Origin: Lentilactobacillus diolivorans DSM 14421
GTDB lineage: Bacteria > Bacillota > Bacilli > Lactobacillales > Lactobacillaceae
DNA: 64,000 nucleotides
Reading direction: 5' to 3'
Assembly (NCBI RefSeq): GCF_001434255.1
Contig: NZ_AZEY01000098.1
Location: 91,985-155,984 of the forward strand
Part shown: piece after piece, positions 5,723 to 58,436 of the stretch
Layout of the letters: each line of letters starts with the position of its first letter
Position numbering within the stretch: the stretch's first letter is position 1
Translations under genes and position numbers: made by a program
Notes under the pieces: generated by a model
The model's database searches: none
What the model was told of the DNA's origin: nothing
The model's input: the letters and a program-made list of their open reading frames with translations, nothing else

Positions 5723-6496
5723 ATGATAACTTTAATTAAAGAAGAGAGCTTTAAATTACTGCATAAACGAAGTACGCCGGCAATTACAATTATTTTGTTG
5801 GTCCTTATGACCGCCTTTGGCGTACTTGCTAAGTCTTATCCGAAGTTTTATTCGCCACGGACATTATTCGTGCAATCATTTACTGGTGATTCTTGGGTGG
5901 TTTTATTTATGATTGCGGCATGTAGTTCAATTATTGCCATGGAATTTCAATATGGGACGATTAAAGAGGTGCTTTATCGGAAATATTATCGTGGCCAAAT
6001 TTTAGTTAGTAAATGGTTAACAATGCTGATTTATTCGATTTATCTCTTTGCCTTAGTGTTCGTTTATTCACTGATTTTGAAATTCGTTTTGTTTAACAAT
6101 ACGTTTGATCTTGGCAGGAAATACGGAGCTGAACATAGTGTCTTTACGTCATTTTCTTATACCTTAATTGGTGATTTTGTGGGTTTGTGGCTGATTTTAA
6201 GTTTGGTTTTGTTACTTGCTAATATCTTCAAGAGTTCGGCTGCTGCGATTTCGGTCGGAATTATCGGGTATTTTGCCCTTGGAGTTATTGCTGGTCTCAT
6301 GACGTTAGCCATTCAAAAATGGAACTGGTTAAAATGGAATCCATTGAATATGATGAATTTGTCAGGTCAAATGAACACCCCATCAATGTCTAAGGTGACG
6401 ATGTTGTCGACACCCGAATTGGCATGGGGAAGTTTGGCTTACACGGCGATCTTCTTGGCAATTAGTTACGTTGTCTTTAAGCGTCGCAGTGTTTAG
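5723..6496 (+). CDS. ABC-2 family transporter permease
   Basis: A 257-residue integral membrane protein with about six hydrophobic segments: residues 20-38, 52-72, 98-122, 142-168, 174-196 and 232-250. The N-terminus (ITLIKEESFKLLHKRST) is a cytosolic amphipathic stretch common to ABC-2 permeases such as BcrB/YtrF-like subunits. It lies 6 bases after the ATPase gene with ribosome site AAAGGAG, so translation is probably coupled. The following hairpin at 6541 likely ends the operon. Confidence 0.9.
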   Translation: MITLIKEESFKLLHKRSTPAITIILLVLMTAFGVLAKSYPKFYSPRTLFVQSFTGDSWVVLFMIAACSSIIAMEFQYGTIKEVLYRKYYRGQILVSKWLTMLIYSIYLFALVFVYSLILKFVLFNNTFDLGRKYGAEHSVFTSFSYTLIGDFVGLWLILSLVLLLANIFKSSAAAISVGIIGYFALGVIAGLMTLAIQKWNWLKWNPLNMMNLSGQMNTPSMSKVTMLSTPELAWGSLAYTAIFLAISYVVFKRRSV

Positions 6497-12499: not shown

Positions 12500-13672
12500 A
12501 TGGAATTAGATGAAATTAATCCAAACGTGTTAAATGTCAAACCATCTGCCATGCGAAAATTTGATCATGATATTAGTTCAGATCCTCAAATCGTTAAGTT
12601 AACGCTGGGCGAACCAAACTTTAATGTTCCAGAGCATATTAAAAAAGCAGCTCATGAGGCCATTGATAAAAACGAATCTCATTATGCGTACTATTGGGGT
12701 GTTGAAGAGCTTCGCGAAGCAGCATCTAATTACTACCGAGATAAATTTGGCTACCATTACACGAAGGATCAAATTGTGGTTACGGTTGGCGCAACTGAAG
12801 CTTTATCGTCAACGGTTAAGACTTTGTTTAAACCTGGCGATGCTGTTATTTTACCAACGCCGGCTTACCCACTCTATAACGCGCTATTAACATTAAACGA
12901 TTTAAAGACGATCTTAATTGATACGAGTGATTCTGGATTTGTATTAACCCCGGAAAAAGTGCAACAGGCGATTTCTGATTATCCCGATTACAATATTAAA
13001 GGGTTGATTTTGACTGATCCCAACAATCCAACCGGTGTGGCTTACACGCAAGAGCAGATTGAAAATTTGGCACCTGTCTTAAAAGACAATGGTATCTGGG
13101 TGATTAGTGATGAAATTTATGGTGAACTGACTTATGGTCAAGCACACTATTCGATTTCGAAGCTATTGCCGGATCAAACCATTGTGATTAATGGTTTATC
13201 CAAGTCACACGCAATGACCGGCTGGCGGATTGGTTTTGTTTTTGGCCCAACTGGGTTTATTGATCAAATTGCCAAGGTGCACCAATTTACGGTCACGACA
13301 CCAACTTCAATTGTTCAATATGCATCGATTGAGGCACTGACAAATGGTCAAAACGATGCGGCAGCGATGAGAAAAGAATATCTGAAGCGGCGGGACTTTG
13401 TCGCAAAAGAGATGAAAGAAGCCGGTTTTGATGTTGTCCATCCCGGTGGGGCATTCTACGTCTTTGCCAAGATTCCGGCTGGATTGCATATGGATAGTTG
13501 GGATTTTGTGAAGACATTAGCCAAGGAATATCATATCGGCTTAATGCCTGGGGATGCTTTTGGCGATAACGCGTATATCCGAATTAGTTATGCTGCTAGT
13601 GATGAAGCATTAAGTACCGCAATGAAAGCCATTAAACAGATGGTAAAAGATAAGACAAAGGAAAAAGTATAG
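12500..13672 (+). CDS. PLP-dependent class I/II aminotransferase
   Basis: A 390-residue fold-type I aminotransferase, starting after CGGAGG. LTDPNNPTG (about 171-179) binds the substrate/cofactor, ISDEIYGEL (about 202-210) supplies the Asp that pairs with the pyridine nitrogen, and SKSHAMTGWRIG carries the Schiff-base Lys near 235. Length is normal for the PatA/AraT-like group that transaminates aromatic, branched or other neutral amino acids with 2-oxoglutarate. It could feed 2-oxo acids to the reductases at 33.5 and 39.5 kb. The specific substrate cannot be read from sequence. Confidence 0.93.
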   Translation: MELDEINPNVLNVKPSAMRKFDHDISSDPQIVKLTLGEPNFNVPEHIKKAAHEAIDKNESHYAYYWGVEELREAASNYYRDKFGYHYTKDQIVVTVGATEALSSTVKTLFKPGDAVILPTPAYPLYNALLTLNDLKTILIDTSDSGFVLTPEKVQQAISDYPDYNIKGLILTDPNNPTGVAYTQEQIENLAPVLKDNGIWVISDEIYGELTYGQAHYSISKLLPDQTIVINGLSKSHAMTGWRIGFVFGPTGFIDQIAKVHQFTVTTPTSIVQYASIEALTNGQNDAAAMRKEYLKRRDFVAKEMKEAGFDVVHPGGAFYVFAKIPAGLHMDSWDFVKTLAKEYHIGLMPGDAFGDNAYIRISYAASDEALSTAMKAIKQMVKDKTKEKV

Positions 13673-40658: not shown

Positions 40659-40679
40659 TGGCAAATAGTTAGAAAACGC

Positions 40680-40945
40680 TGTGAGAAAGTTGAGTAATGT
40701 TTTACGATTCTAAAGCGAGCTTCGTTTGGTGAGAGGAAGCAGAACGATAAACGTGAAAATCCCTTTCGAGCGATGTACCGAAGACAAAGTAACGTGCATT
40801 GGTGACACCCATTATCGTGTTAGCGTATCGCTTTTTTAGCCGTACGTGAAAGGCAGCTTTAGTGATAGAGCTGCAAACATAAGGTGGTACCGTGCCATAA
40901 GCACCCTTAATTCAGTGTCAGACTGAGTTGGGGGTGCTTTTTTAT
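40680..40945 (+). ncRNA. T-box leader with Ile (ATC) specifier
   Basis: Stem I closes by GAAAG (40685) against CTTTC (about 40763); the GAGTA bulge follows the 5' strand. The specifier loop reads GUGAAA-AUC-CCUUUC, with ATC at 40759-40761, aligned exactly with the Val leader at 33278. The T-box core AAGGTGGTACCGTGCC (40881-40896) exposes UGGU. The terminator GCACCCTTAATTCAGT/ACTGAGTTGGGGGTGC ends in T residues. It controls brnQ, 150 bases downstream; that interval holds no convincing gene. Confidence 0.88.
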
Positions 40946-54372: not shown

Positions 54373-56343
54373 ATGCAAGTTAAAACGACACCCAAATTAG
54401 ATAAGGTGGAAGTTACTTCAGATTTTTGGAAACGTTATCGTGAACTCGTTGTTAAGGAAGTCTTACCATATCAATGGAAAGTGATGAACGACGAAGCCGA
54501 TATTTCAATTGCTGAAGATCCGCAAAACAACGGCCAAGACAAAAATAGTCACGCTGTTGCCAATTTGAAGATTGCTGCCGGCGAAATGAAGGGCCATCAC
54601 TATGGGTTCCCATTCCAAGACACTGATGTGTACAAGTGGTTGGAGGCCGCCGCATATTCATTCGGTTACCATCCCAATCCAGATTTGAAGGAAATTACCG
54701 ATAATTTGGTTGACTTGATCGCCAAGGCGCAAGACGACGACGGTTATTTATCGACTTACTTCCAAATTGATGCTCCGGAACGTAAATTCAAACGATTACA
54801 GCAATCTCACGAATTATATACAATGGGTCACTACATTGAAGCTGGTGTTGCTTATTACAATGCTACCGGTAATGAAAAAGCCTTGGACATTGCTAAACGC
54901 ATGGCTGACTGTATCGACAAGCATTTTGGCCTTGAAGAAGGTAAAATTCCTGGATACGATGGTCACCCTGAAATTGAATTGGCATTGTCACGACTCTATG
55001 AAGTTACCAATGACGAGAAGTATCTTGATTTAGCGCATTACTTCTTAACCCAGCGTGGCCAAGATCCTGCCTTCTTTGAAAAGCAGATCAAAGCTGACGG
55101 TGACAGTACTGATCGTGATTTGATTCCCGGTATGCGTGATTTTCCTCGTGAATATTACTTAGCCGCAGAACCAATCAAGGATCAAAAGGTGCCTCATGGT
55201 CATGCTGTTCGAGTCGTTTATCTTTGCACCGGAATGGCTTACGTTGCCCGTTACACTGGCGATAAAGATTTATTAGCTGCCTGTGACCGCTTCTGGAACG
55301 ATATTGTTAAACGTCAAATGTACATCACTGGTAACATTGGTCAAACCACTACTGGTGAAGCCTTTACCTACGACTATGACTTGCCCAATGATACGGATTA
55401 CGGTGAGACTTGTGCCTCAGTCGGCATGTCATTCTTTGCTCGACAAATGTTGAATATTCATGCTAAGGGCGAGTACGCTGATGTTCTTGAAAAGGAACTC
55501 TTCAACGGCGCTTTAAGCGGGATGTCACTTGATGGTAAACACTTCTTCTATGTTAACCCGTTGGAAGCTGATCCAGCTGCCAGCAAGGGTAACCCAGGCA
55601 AGTCACATATCTTGACTCATCGGGCTGATTGGTTTGGTTGTGCATGCTGCCCTGCCAACCTGGCACGGTTGATCACTTCTGTTGACGAATACCTTTACAC
55701 GGTTGACGAAGACACTATCCTGAGTCACCAATTCATTTCCAATAATGCTGAATTCGACAATGGGGTTAAGATTTCGCAAACTAACCACTTCCCATGGAGC
55801 GGTGATATTCATTACGAAATTGCCAATCCAAACAACGAATCAGTTAAATTGGGCATCCGAATTCCAAGTTGGTCAGTTAACAATTACGACGTTTCAGTTG
55901 ATGGCAAGAAGGCTGATCCTGAACTTAAAGACGGCTTTGTTTACTTCGATGTTGATGGCAAATCATTAACCATTGATTTGACACTTGATATGAGTGTTAA
56001 GTTTATGAAAGCAAACAATCGAGTTAAGGCTGACTTTGGTAAGGTTGCCGTTCAACGGGGACCAGTTGTCTTCGCCGCTGAGCAAACTGATAATGAAGCC
56101 CCACTTTGGGACTACGAAGTCAATACCGACGCTAAACCAAGTTATCACTATGATGATAAATTATTAGACGGTGTTGGTGTTGTCAAAGTAGCTGCCAAGA
56201 AACAAGACCCTGACTCAACAGATGCCCCATTATACACGGAGGTAGCCTCTGAGGATGCAAAGGATGTGGACTTAACCTTAGTTCCGTACTATGCATGGGC
56301 TAACCGTGAAAATGGTCAAATGAGAGTTTGGTTGAATAAGTAA
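54373..56343 (+). CDS. GH127 beta-L-arabinofuranosidase
   Basis: A 656-residue cytoplasmic glycosidase starting after AGGAGG. The alpha/alpha-barrel N-terminal domain includes FPFQDTDVYKWLEAAAYSFG. GETC (Glu near 345, Cys near 347) and CACCPAN (Cys near 425 and 426) match the zinc-binding Glu-x-Cys and Cys-Cys of characterised GH127 enzymes, where Cys acts as the nucleophile. C-terminal beta-domains follow (about 480-656). It should release L-arabinose from beta-arabinofuranosides of hydroxyproline-rich plant glycoproteins; that substrate is inferred from the family. Confidence 0.95.
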   Translation: MQVKTTPKLDKVEVTSDFWKRYRELVVKEVLPYQWKVMNDEADISIAEDPQNNGQDKNSHAVANLKIAAGEMKGHHYGFPFQDTDVYKWLEAAAYSFGYHPNPDLKEITDNLVDLIAKAQDDDGYLSTYFQIDAPERKFKRLQQSHELYTMGHYIEAGVAYYNATGNEKALDIAKRMADCIDKHFGLEEGKIPGYDGHPEIELALSRLYEVTNDEKYLDLAHYFLTQRGQDPAFFEKQIKADGDSTDRDLIPGMRDFPREYYLAAEPIKDQKVPHGHAVRVVYLCTGMAYVARYTGDKDLLAACDRFWNDIVKRQMYITGNIGQTTTGEAFTYDYDLPNDTDYGETCASVGMSFFARQMLNIHAKGEYADVLEKELFNGALSGMSLDGKHFFYVNPLEADPAASKGNPGKSHILTHRADWFGCACCPANLARLITSVDEYLYTVDEDTILSHQFISNNAEFDNGVKISQTNHFPWSGDIHYEIANPNNESVKLGIRIPSWSVNNYDVSVDGKKADPELKDGFVYFDVDGKSLTIDLTLDMSVKFMKANNRVKADFGKVAVQRGPVVFAAEQTDNEAPLWDYEVNTDAKPSYHYDDKLLDGVGVVKVAAKKQDPDSTDAPLYTEVASEDAKDVDLTLVPYYAWANRENGQMRVWLNK

Positions 56344-56369
56344 TCTGATTGTCATATCAAATCATTAAG

Positions 56370-56414
56370 AAGGGGGGATGGGAGATTGAACGCGTCTTCC
56401 ATTCCCCCTTTTTG
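56370..56414 (+). terminator. Terminator of the arabinoside operon
   Basis: AAGGGGGGATGGGAGA pairs with TCTTCCATTCCCCCTT, then TTTG. Confidence 0.88.
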
Positions 56415-56606
56415 TATCAGATGTTCAGTGTTAGAAGAAGGCAGGATTGGCATTTAAAAGTGACCATTCTAATCTTGTAAAGATGGTTACTGAGCTCGTT
56501 AGAAAGATCAAAGTAGTTGTTGATTGATCGGATTAATTTTGAGAGCTGCTGGAATTGTTTAGATTGTTAAACCAATGACGAAGCTTCTTCTTGAGTTTCA
56601 AAAAGG

Positions 56607-56636
56607 TTGAAACCTAATAACACCTCATGTTACACT
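56607..56636 (+). promoter_or_regulatory. Promoter of the candidate small RNA
   Basis: TTGAAA at 56607 and TACACT at 56631 with an 18-base spacer; predicted start near 56643. Confidence 0.55.
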
Positions 56637-56642
56637 ATTAAA

Positions 56643-56767
56643 AAGTTATCAATCGAATAAGTAAACGCTATTTCTGACATGGCGTTTCGAAACCCCATTC
56701 GATCTTATTCGAGATAATATTTGAGCTTTGCAAAGTAGATGATGCTATTTTGCAAAGCTTTTTTATT
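56643..56767 (+). ncRNA. Candidate independent small RNA with three-way junction and terminator
   Basis: About 125 nt with no ORF. The closing helix pairs GTTATC (56645) plus TCGAATAAG (56653) with CTTATTCGA (56704) plus GATAAT (56713): 15 pairs with a two-base bulge. Inside are a 9-pair hairpin, AAACGCTAT/ATGGCGTTT with a 7-base loop, and a 4-pair hairpin, CGAA/TTCG with loop ACCCCA. The terminator GCTTTGCAAA (56725)/TTTTGCAAAGC (56749) then runs into TTTTTT. The CCCC loop could pair with GGGG-type ribosome sites. It does not match riboswitch patterns I know. The neighbouring gapN gene has its own promoter. Confidence 0.6.
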
Positions 56768-56890
56768 TTGAAAACTAAGTTGTGTTTATTCAGAGACATT
56801 TTCACAAAAATCAGGAAAACAATTTCAACTGTAGATCTTTCTGATTAATGGTTATAGGGTGTCAAATGAGCTGGTATATCACATTTTCAG

Positions 56891-56919
56891 TTGACTTTCA
56901 TAAATGAGGACACTATAAT
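56891..56919 (+). promoter_or_regulatory. Promoter of the GapN-type gene
   Basis: TTGACT, 17-base spacer, TATAAT: an excellent sigma-A match, downstream of the small-RNA terminator. Confidence 0.85.
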
Positions 56920-56996
56920 TTCTAGTTAAACGACTAATGAAAGCGGGATGAAAATACCTTGATTTAGTCAAAAATTATGAAAAAGAGGTTGATTGA

Positions 56997-58436
56997 ATGG
57001 ATGTCTTAACGACATATCAAGCATATTTAGCTGGTAACTGGCAAGACAGTGATTCTAAACGAACGATTGAAATTGTTTCGCCATGGCAGCATCAGCCAAT
57101 TGGGCGAGTCCAAGCAGTTACCCAAGACGAAGTTGATCAAGCAATTCAGCAAGCTCAAAAAGCGCAACCTGCATGGGCCTCATTGTCACTTGGCGAGCGC
57201 GGCGCCTATTTAAACCGTTGGGCAGATCATTTAGATCAATCCGCCGATGATCTGGCAATCTCTGTAATGAATGAAGTTGGTAAAAACTATGATGACGCTA
57301 AGAAGGAAGTTCTTAGGACAGTTGATTTAATCAGATATACAGTTCAAGAGGCATTGCATATGCATGGTCAAAGTGTCCGTGGGGATGGCTTTCCCGGTGG
57401 CTCAAAAGAAAAATTGGGGATTGTTGAACGAGTCCCATTAGGCGTTGTTTTGGCAATTTCACCGTTTAATTACCCTGTGAATTTATCAGCATCTAAGATT
57501 GCACCAGCGCTGATGGCTGGTAACGCAGTGATTTTCAAACCAGCAACCCAGGGATCAATTAGTGGTATTAAAATGATTGAAACGCTTGATCAAGCTGGCC
57601 TTCCTAAGGGTTTGATTAGTTTATTAACTGGACATGGTTCAGAAATTGGGGACTATTTGATTGAACATCCGGGTATTAATATGGTTAGTTTCACTGGCAG
57701 TACCCAAACTGGAAAGCATCTTTCAGAAAAGTCAATTATGGTCCCAATGGTCTTGGAACTTGGTGGCAAGGATCCGGCCATTGTTTGCGAGGATGCCGAT
57801 TTAGATGTAACGGCTAAAAATATTATTGGCGGTGCTTTTGCTTATTCAGGTCAGCGCTGTACGGCCGTGAAACGGGTATTGGTTAATGATCAGGTTGCTG
57901 ATAAATTAGTTGAGAAACTTAAGTCAGGCGTTGAAGGTTTATCCGTTGGGAATCCAGACGAAGACAATACAATTGTCCCGTTGATTGATGATAAATCAGC
58001 GGACTTTGTTCAAAGGTTAATCGACGATGCATTGGGCAAGGGTGCAACACTTGTAACAGGAAATCATCGTCAGGAAAATTTATTGGCACCAATATTATTG
58101 GACCATGTCACCCAAGATATGGATGTTGCTTGGGTTGAGCCGTTTGGGCCGGTGCTACCTATTATCCGGGTTCATTCTGATGAGGAAGCGCTCCGAATTG
58201 CTAATAAATCGCAGTTCGGCTTGCAGGCTAGCGTGTTTACCAAAGATTTAGATGAGGCTTTGGAACTTGCAGGGAAGCTTCAAGTTGGAACTGTCCAAGT
58301 AAATGGTCGACCACAAAGAGGACCTGATAATTTTCCGTTTCTAGGGGTTAAGGCATCTGGAATGGGGACTCAAGGTGTTCATAATAGTATCTTATCGATG
58401 TCACGGGAAAAATTAACCGTTATGAATTTAAAGTAG
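56997..58436 (+). CDS. gapN: NADP-dependent non-phosphorylating glyceraldehyde-3-phosphate dehydrogenase-like aldehyde dehydrogenase
   Basis: A 479-residue aldehyde-dehydrogenase superfamily protein. ISPFNYPVNLSASKIAPALM (about 156-175) and MVSFTGSTQTGK frame the NADP site, VLELGGKDPAIV holds the catalytic Glu (near 254), and YSGQRCTAVKRVLV the nucleophile Cys (near 288). The C-terminal QVNGRPQRGPDNFPFLGVKASG resembles GapN, which oxidises glyceraldehyde-3-phosphate to 3-phosphoglycerate while making NADPH. Other aldehyde specificity is possible. Single gene with a strong promoter. Confidence 0.88.
   Translation: MDVLTTYQAYLAGNWQDSDSKRTIEIVSPWQHQPIGRVQAVTQDEVDQAIQQAQKAQPAWASLSLGERGAYLNRWADHLDQSADDLAISVMNEVGKNYDDAKKEVLRTVDLIRYTVQEALHMHGQSVRGDGFPGGSKEKLGIVERVPLGVVLAISPFNYPVNLSASKIAPALMAGNAVIFKPATQGSISGIKMIETLDQAGLPKGLISLLTGHGSEIGDYLIEHPGINMVSFTGSTQTGKHLSEKSIMVPMVLELGGKDPAIVCEDADLDVTAKNIIGGAFAYSGQRCTAVKRVLVNDQVADKLVEKLKSGVEGLSVGNPDEDNTIVPLIDDKSADFVQRLIDDALGKGATLVTGNHRQENLLAPILLDHVTQDMDVAWVEPFGPVLPIIRVHSDEEALRIANKSQFGLQASVFTKDLDEALELAGKLQVGTVQVNGRPQRGPDNFPFLGVKASGMGTQGVHNSILSMSREKLTVMNLK

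Follow-up and report, generated by a model that had tools for sequence, protein, structure and literature searches.

Among the described small RNAs (sRNAs) that come closest to the RNA analyzed here are the csRNAs of streptococci, in which anti-Shine-Dalgarno (anti-SD) and anti-AUG sequences occur (PMC3091779). The csRNAs (CiaRH) resemble the present RNA in being multicopy, related in sequence, transcribed from their own promoters and complementary to both the SD and the AUG. The locus compared here lies in a window of 64,000 nucleotides from Lentilactobacillus diolivorans DSM 14421, the window being the whole stretch of DNA that was analyzed. Its predicted RNA carries both kinds of complementarity, as judged from sequence only: loop B is complementary to GGGG and loop A to AUGUCAGAAA. 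The csRNAs hold both stretches in a single unpaired segment that separates two stem-loops, whereas here each stretch has a hairpin loop of its own within a three-way junction; reports of CiaRH are confined to streptococci (PMC3091779), and both the genus and the associated genes differ here. The LhrC1-5 RNAs of Listeria are likewise multicopy and use several C-rich sites against mRNA (PMC4132741). They are induced by envelope stress via LisRK and have three redundant CU-rich sites, whereas the present RNA combines one CCCC loop with a different conserved loop and is associated with sugar operons.

Other likenesses are partial. RsaE/RoxS, other UCCCC sRNAs and the icaR 3' UTR share a C-rich motif directed against G-rich SDs (PMC3868564); the present RNA differs from RsaE/RoxS in lacking an Rfam match and in presenting ACCCCA in a hairpin with a near-invariant stem. 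The sRNA gene argX of Lactococcus lactis lies just behind a metabolic regulator gene and has its own promoter; its RNA, ArgX, is ∼66 nt long, overlaps the argR 3' UTR and shares its terminator (PMC6586332). In contrast, the terminator of the preceding gene is separate in the window, and copies in relatives have an SD in place of the promoter. RsaG of Staphylococcus aureus is a Gram-positive 3'-UTR RNA left over from 5'-to-3' decay with RNase J trimming, and a stable hairpin is the block there (PMC9438474); the block proposed here is a ribosome-binding sequence. Finally, a STAB-SD is an SD at which translation does not begin but RNase J1 is halted (PMC4113751, PMC3997798). The STAB-SD of cry3A has the capacity to bind 16S rRNA, initiates no translation and blocks RNase J1 (PMC4113751). 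A strong complementarity to 16S rRNA is found in 9 of the 10 non-promoter copies scored and is absent from the window copy. The cry3A element lies in a 5' UTR and protects a coding sequence, whereas the sequence here is part of a 3' UTR, has a structured RNA 45-60 nt downstream and is of low predicted accessibility.

A predicted small transcription unit behind a GH127 gene

The GH127 gene upstream of the RNA spans 54373-56343, and its product matches the Pfam GH127 catalytic domain. The initial annotation had placed a terminator behind this gene, and a strong one is found at 56369-56411 (+), outside the RNA, consisting of an 18-pair hairpin with a U tract (MFE -29.8, z -6.0). Downstream, on the same strand, an aldehyde dehydrogenase gene occupies 56997-58436, and the promoter of its own that had been proposed for it is found as a promoter-like site, TTGACT-17-TATAAT, at 56891-56919 with 11 of 12 consensus positions. 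The gene had been named gapN; aldehyde dehydrogenase stands, but the specific name finds no support among the best 25 of 45 NCBIfam matches, none of which lies above its cut-off, and the best of which is a lactaldehyde dehydrogenase below it.

The unit between these genes, read on the forward strand, begins with a -35 box TTGAAA (56607-56612), found by promoter scan, followed after an 18-nt spacer by TACACT (56631-56636), part of an extended -10 box TG-T-TACACT (56628-56636) identified by scan and by conservation. Consensus scans of 55500-57500 remain at chance level, with 4 promoter-like sites observed against 4.7 expected and 1 terminator-like site against 1.4; comparison among copies must therefore decide on both elements. 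This comparison raises the window promoter above chance, since TTGAAN-17/18-TG-N-TACACT is kept in all five copies of one clade (group I), the window copy included. The group I alignment also picks out a block within the spacer, CACCTCATG at 56621-56629 (+), which reads CACCCCATG in two of four relatives and close variants of it in the other two. The block CACCCCATG repeats the loop B motif ACCCCAT, of which the window version is ACCTCAT; it is possibly an operator, possibly a chance resemblance.

The predicted sRNA is ∼125 nt long (56643-56767, +), its start placed from the -10 box and its end from the U tract. In the predicted fold, closing helix P1 (5' strand 56645-56661, 3' strand 56704-56718) has 6 + 9 = 15 pairs, the number given by the initial annotation, and encloses hairpin A (56664-56686), with loop UUCUGAC at 56672-56678, and hairpin B (56687-56702), with loop ACCCCA at 56692-56697. 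Hairpin A has 8 pairs instead of the 9 first proposed, and hairpin B has the loop as described on a stem of 5 pairs instead of 4. The intrinsic terminator and U tract of the RNA lie at 56723-56767, with the terminator hairpin at 56723-56760, as seen by terminator scan, by folding and by comparison of copies. The three-way junction is well supported: the whole RNA folds at -44.0 against -20.2 for shuffles (z -7.5), and the part without the terminator at -22.6 (z -4.4), a value equalled by 1 of 200 shuffles. No sense-strand open reading frame (ORF) of at least 20 aa lies within the RNA, in line with the earlier claim; a 32-aa sense ORF begins in the terminator, and the opposite strand holds ORFs of 22 and 45 aa. 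The observation as a whole, namely promoter, junction, terminator and lack of a sense ORF at 56607-56767, is confirmed. An own promoter and terminator without a coding frame, the features of a trans-encoded sRNA, are thus present at the level of sequence.

Rfam gives no match at the locus at the gathering threshold, and below it (E up to 1) only microRNA matches. The sole gathering-threshold match in the window is a T-box leader at 40672-40911. At the level of search results, with subscription papers mostly outside its scope, a literature search returned no description of this RNA.

Distribution, conservation and context of the copies

Distribution of the RNA was followed with covariance models of the two hairpins, built in a first (R1) and a second (R2) round. 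The first-round model gave 22 matches, of which two were removed to leave 20: L042, which has no hairpin besides B, and L043, which on inspection by eye lies within a long frame. The second-round model gave 22, of which L042 was removed to leave 21. The two-hairpin core is accordingly present in 21 copies, spread over 14 of 24 Lentilactobacillus genomes. The copy found last, in G011, lies outside the counts of covariation, SD, promoter, P1, neighbours and terminator, which refer to 20 copies. L042 (L. farraginis) has hairpin B alone, TTCGAAACCCCATTCGAA, behind a different AT-rich stretch and is possibly a diverged copy of the RNA, and two weak model matches, L063 and L064, were judged false by eye. 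In 40 relatives, blastn finds four orthologues of 81-83% identity that span most of the interval from promoter to P1, together with four core-only matches in three genomes; five short terminator-only matches, one of them the window's own palindrome, were set aside.

The family appears confined to the genus. In a collection of ∼85,000 species with one genome per species, all 13 exact-pattern matches fall in Lentilactobacillus, in ten named species. The two-hairpin core is found in none of 373 other Lactobacillaceae genomes, and a sample of 395 genomes of the order contains no carrier outside Lentilactobacillus, the large genome samples having been scored with stricter filters at which weak matches are lost. 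An exact-pattern search of viral contigs and a blastn search of plasmids gave no copy.

Conservation differs between the parts of the RNA. In hairpin A, 98% of cells in the 20-row alignment are paired, and double-sided changes occur in 6 of 8 pairs, in 20 cells, a level reached by 0 of 500 shuffles; in G016 much of the stem is exchanged and compensated. Its loop is near-invariant, with UUUCUGACA kept in 18 of the 20 rows (G016 and G014b differ) and changed also in the G011 copy outside the alignment. Hairpin B, CGAA(A)CCCCAUUCG, is near-constant, stem included. None of its four aligned pairs has a double-sided change, and the stem therefore looks to be held by sequence. Apart from the optional A, loop and stem are kept in 16 of the 20 rows and altered in G014b, G008a, G006b and G022c. 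The sequence CCCCAUUCG may also be complementary to 23S rRNA. Both loops are predicted to be at least 0.90 unpaired in all nine promoter-driven copies folded, the tenth lying outside the fold set. Loop A, UUCUGAC, has the shape of an anticodon loop, but a reading as anticodon loop or T-box decoy was dropped, as such a fit is expected for about one in eight of all 7-nt loops.

P1 is more diverged than the hairpins. Own flanks pair at -10.5 kcal/mol on average against -6.4 for swapped flanks, although the own 3' flank ranks 1-3 of 20 in only 11 of 20 copies and 7th in L. hilgardii; in the group I alignment 1 of 26 pairs has a double-sided change, the five copies being too similar for much covariation. 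An intrinsic terminator is found in 17 of the 20 copies.

In 16 of the 20 tabulated copies the RNA follows a glycan-operon gene on its own strand, encoding GH127, a GPH sugar symporter, a GH39-like surface protein or a melibiase (one member of each family assigned by Pfam or NCBIfam, the rest by shared ends and clusters). For the copies G018, G019, G008a and G006b, the preceding called frame lies on the other strand. The genes 3' of the 20 copies vary and include those for an aldehyde dehydrogenase, an MFS protein, a LacI protein, a DUF2264 protein, a glutamate dehydrogenase (one member assigned for each of these five types) and large surface-type proteins. No degenerate copy is seen by eye before the glutamate dehydrogenase gene of the window. 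In L. otakiensis (L045) several sugar genes lie between two copies, at 5898 and 12943, a distance of 7 kb. The copy at 12943 is degenerate, with an SD region that is antisense to both of its own loops.

Homologues of GH127 occur in 16 of the 24 genomes, and the RNA is found in 13 of these 16 versus 1 of the other 8. L. hilgardii (G018) has no GH127 match, yet promoter, both hairpins and terminator are kept there, with a weak P1. The RNA is retained in L. farraginis, where GH127 is broken. The L. kefiri copy at the GH127 locus has lost its neighbour, and its P1 pairs no better than swapped flanks; core, -10 box and a terminator-like hairpin are still present. Within 500 nt behind seven further GH127 genes, inspected by eye, the RNA is found in no case, and it lies further downstream in G004 and G014. 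This pattern of presence, loss and absence indicates that the RNA is more than a terminator of GH127. Broken or split GH127 orthologues are found in L061 (L. farraginis) and L051 (L. parakefiri).

An RNA gene at this locus is close to certain, and in the window the predicted RNA is very probably free-standing, as the initial annotation had suggested: promoter and hairpins are conserved, the family has 21 copies, changes in hairpin A are compensated, and the copy in L. hilgardii is kept without GH127. Three aspects go beyond that annotation, namely a multicopy, genus-specific family, a loop A conserved equally to loop B, and an SD arrangement in relatives.

Two proposed kinds of 5' end

Ten GH127-locus copies, in two clades, have a conserved promoter directly before the RNA. 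Alongside the group I promoter, TTTNAW-17-TATAGT is found in all five group II copies. The TATAGT site is the best of a weight-matrix scan in two of these five, where 68 and 11 of 200 shuffles score as high, and conservation is the evidence for this putative promoter.

A strong SD (TAAGGGAGGTGAT-like, matching the 16S 3' end at -15.9 to -20.6 kcal/mol) is found in 9 of the 10 non-promoter copies scored and in none of the ten promoter copies, the window copy included. This super-SD lies 45-60 nt before hairpin A and is without a convincing ORF. The nine copies do not amount to nine independent cases, because they comprise six distinct sequences, one of them shared by four copies. Among control 3' ends of other genes, 1 of 90 and 1 of 104 are as strong, in sets that overlap and come partly from orthologous loci; a 105th entry, copy G022c itself, was excluded from the second. 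A start codon follows 2 nt past the G-rich core in five of the nine and opens ORFs of 7-26 codons; in one it follows at 15 nt, and in three there is none within 15 nt. G016 has neither promoter nor SD, and none is seen by eye in G011. The SD copies in L. kisonensis and L. fungorum share the locus of the window copy and are followed by DUF2264 and LacI genes.

In the nine promoter-less copies a 30S subunit could park on the ribosome-binding sequence 45-60 nt upstream and halt 5'-to-3' decay of the operon mRNA, so that the RNA would be left as a stable 3' fragment whose 5' end is set by the SD. TIGR00649, which we take to be ribonuclease J, is represented by two whole genes in 23 of the 24 genomes and by one whole gene and one in two pieces in G019. 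The super-SD is predicted to be 0.19-0.45 unpaired in the nine SD copies, in which loop A is predicted to be 0.46-0.97 unpaired and, in the eight computed, loop B 0.19-1.00. This low predicted openness weakens the case for both a roadblock and loop pairing in these copies. SD-capped biogenesis from the 3' UTR in relatives is a possible route that we advance with less than even confidence. The wider proposal is that one family of two-loop SD/start sRNAs has two exchangeable origins, transcription from a dedicated promoter or cleavage from the 3' end of sugar operons at a 30S-parked untranslated super-SD; we consider it less likely than not.

Proposed action, candidate targets and alternative readings

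Taken together, the evidence moderately favors a genus-specific multicopy sRNA that would act in trans and block translation, with loop B on the SD and loop A on the start region of an mRNA. The RNA would be transcribed after its own promoter or following sugar-operon activity. Loop B (ACCCCA) would then be presented to the SD of a putative target mRNA and loop A (UUUCUGACAU) to its start-codon region (AUGUCAGAAA), and pairing of both loops would block translation. The GGGG complementary to loop B is present in many SDs, and the complement of loop A, AUGUCAGAAA, is a common start of genes encoding M-S-E. The order of the loops in the RNA, A and then B, fits an SD followed by an AUG in an antiparallel target.

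The two-loop pattern, GGGG followed after 2-16 nt by ATGTCAGA, has 71 matches in the 24 genomes versus 6 for the reversed control; the 71 include RNA copies, longer G runs that were counted more than once and gene starts of the usual kind, and 30 loci were inspected. One candidate, a gene that we take to be pncB, has GGGG...AUGUCAGA in 5 of the 24 genomes, all of them carriers; it was rejected, since four group I carriers have AUGCCAAAA and the non-carrier G009 has a AUGUCAGAA start. A start that is presumably valyl-tRNA-synthetase-like shows one 19-nt site with one varying base in G000, G008, G009 and G022, of which G009 is a non-carrier and only the G009 and G022 loci were inspected. A third multi-species candidate gene is found in G011 and G016. 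None of 18 gene clusters near the copies, 12 of which are listed, was judged to have a convincing conserved site. Candidate starts in the window (for example near 1677, 26990 and 51373) come from an unfiltered list and are without cross-species support. The loop B complement GAATGGGGTT occurs 4 times in the window's own genome against 8 for the reversed control, which is no enrichment, and 36 times against 20 in four genomes. In the same four genomes ATGTCAGAAA occurs 53 times, RNA copies included, against 12 for the reversed control, an enrichment that probably reflects just the common M-S-E gene starts. The earlier suggestion that the CCCC loop pairs with ribosome sites stays plausible: loop B is near-constant and predicted to be unpaired in promoter-driven copies, but neither the 18 neighboring clusters (12 of them listed) nor pncB supplied a convincing site.

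Several other readings account for part of these observations. The near-invariance of hairpin B, whose stem never covaries, fits protein recognition equally well, and the 11-13 nt held near-invariant per hairpin exceed what a short seed needs; loops and hairpin B stem could then be the recognition site of a protein- or ligand-binding RNA (a sponge, scaffold or sensor) instead of an antisense seed. We consider this rather unlikely, as no Rfam match is found at the locus and as the window copy shows neither an overlap between P1 and terminator nor, with its relatives, a constant downstream gene, and therefore no riboswitch expression platform. The glycan-operon gene on the same strand before 16 of 20 copies would suit a 3'-UTR element acting in cis, in which either the loops would base-pair within their own operon mRNA, at its 5' UTR or SD, or the structure would do no more than protect the operon 3' end. 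A precedent is the icaR 3' UTR of S. aureus, which uses UCCCC against its own SD (PMC3868564). The conserved promoter of ten copies, the strong terminator between GH127 and the window copy, the persistence of the RNA in L. hilgardii without GH127 and the seven further GH127 genes without it in the next 500 nt (by eye; further downstream in G004 and G014) make such a cis element unlikely.

Two further readings carry far less weight. Multiple copies, and a reverse complement that reads ATG TCA GAA (MSE), might point to a selfish palindromic repeat or to a conserved opposite-strand micro-ORF (ATGTCAGAAAT...), but the opposite-strand frames diverge just past the loop and range from 7 to 42 codons among the copies listed, and the copies keep a promoter or SD and mostly a terminator, all of which renders this reading very improbable. 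The position of the RNA 5' of the aldehyde dehydrogenase gene and on the same strand is that of a leader or attenuator. Such a role is negligibly probable, in agreement with the initial annotation, given the near-consensus promoter (11/12) of that gene itself and the variable downstream neighborhood, in which aldehyde dehydrogenase ('gapN') is the first or second downstream gene in none of the other 19 tabulated copies.

Should the trans-acting sRNA with two kinds of 5' end prove true, it would establish that Gram-positive bacteria can produce 3'-UTR sRNAs by means of a ribosome roadblock. The occurrence of a promoter or a strong SD before the same RNA body makes this second kind of block directly testable. 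These food lactobacilli inhabit kefir, wine and silage. For them, the RNA would likely provide a post-transcriptional link between the use of plant glycans and other genes.
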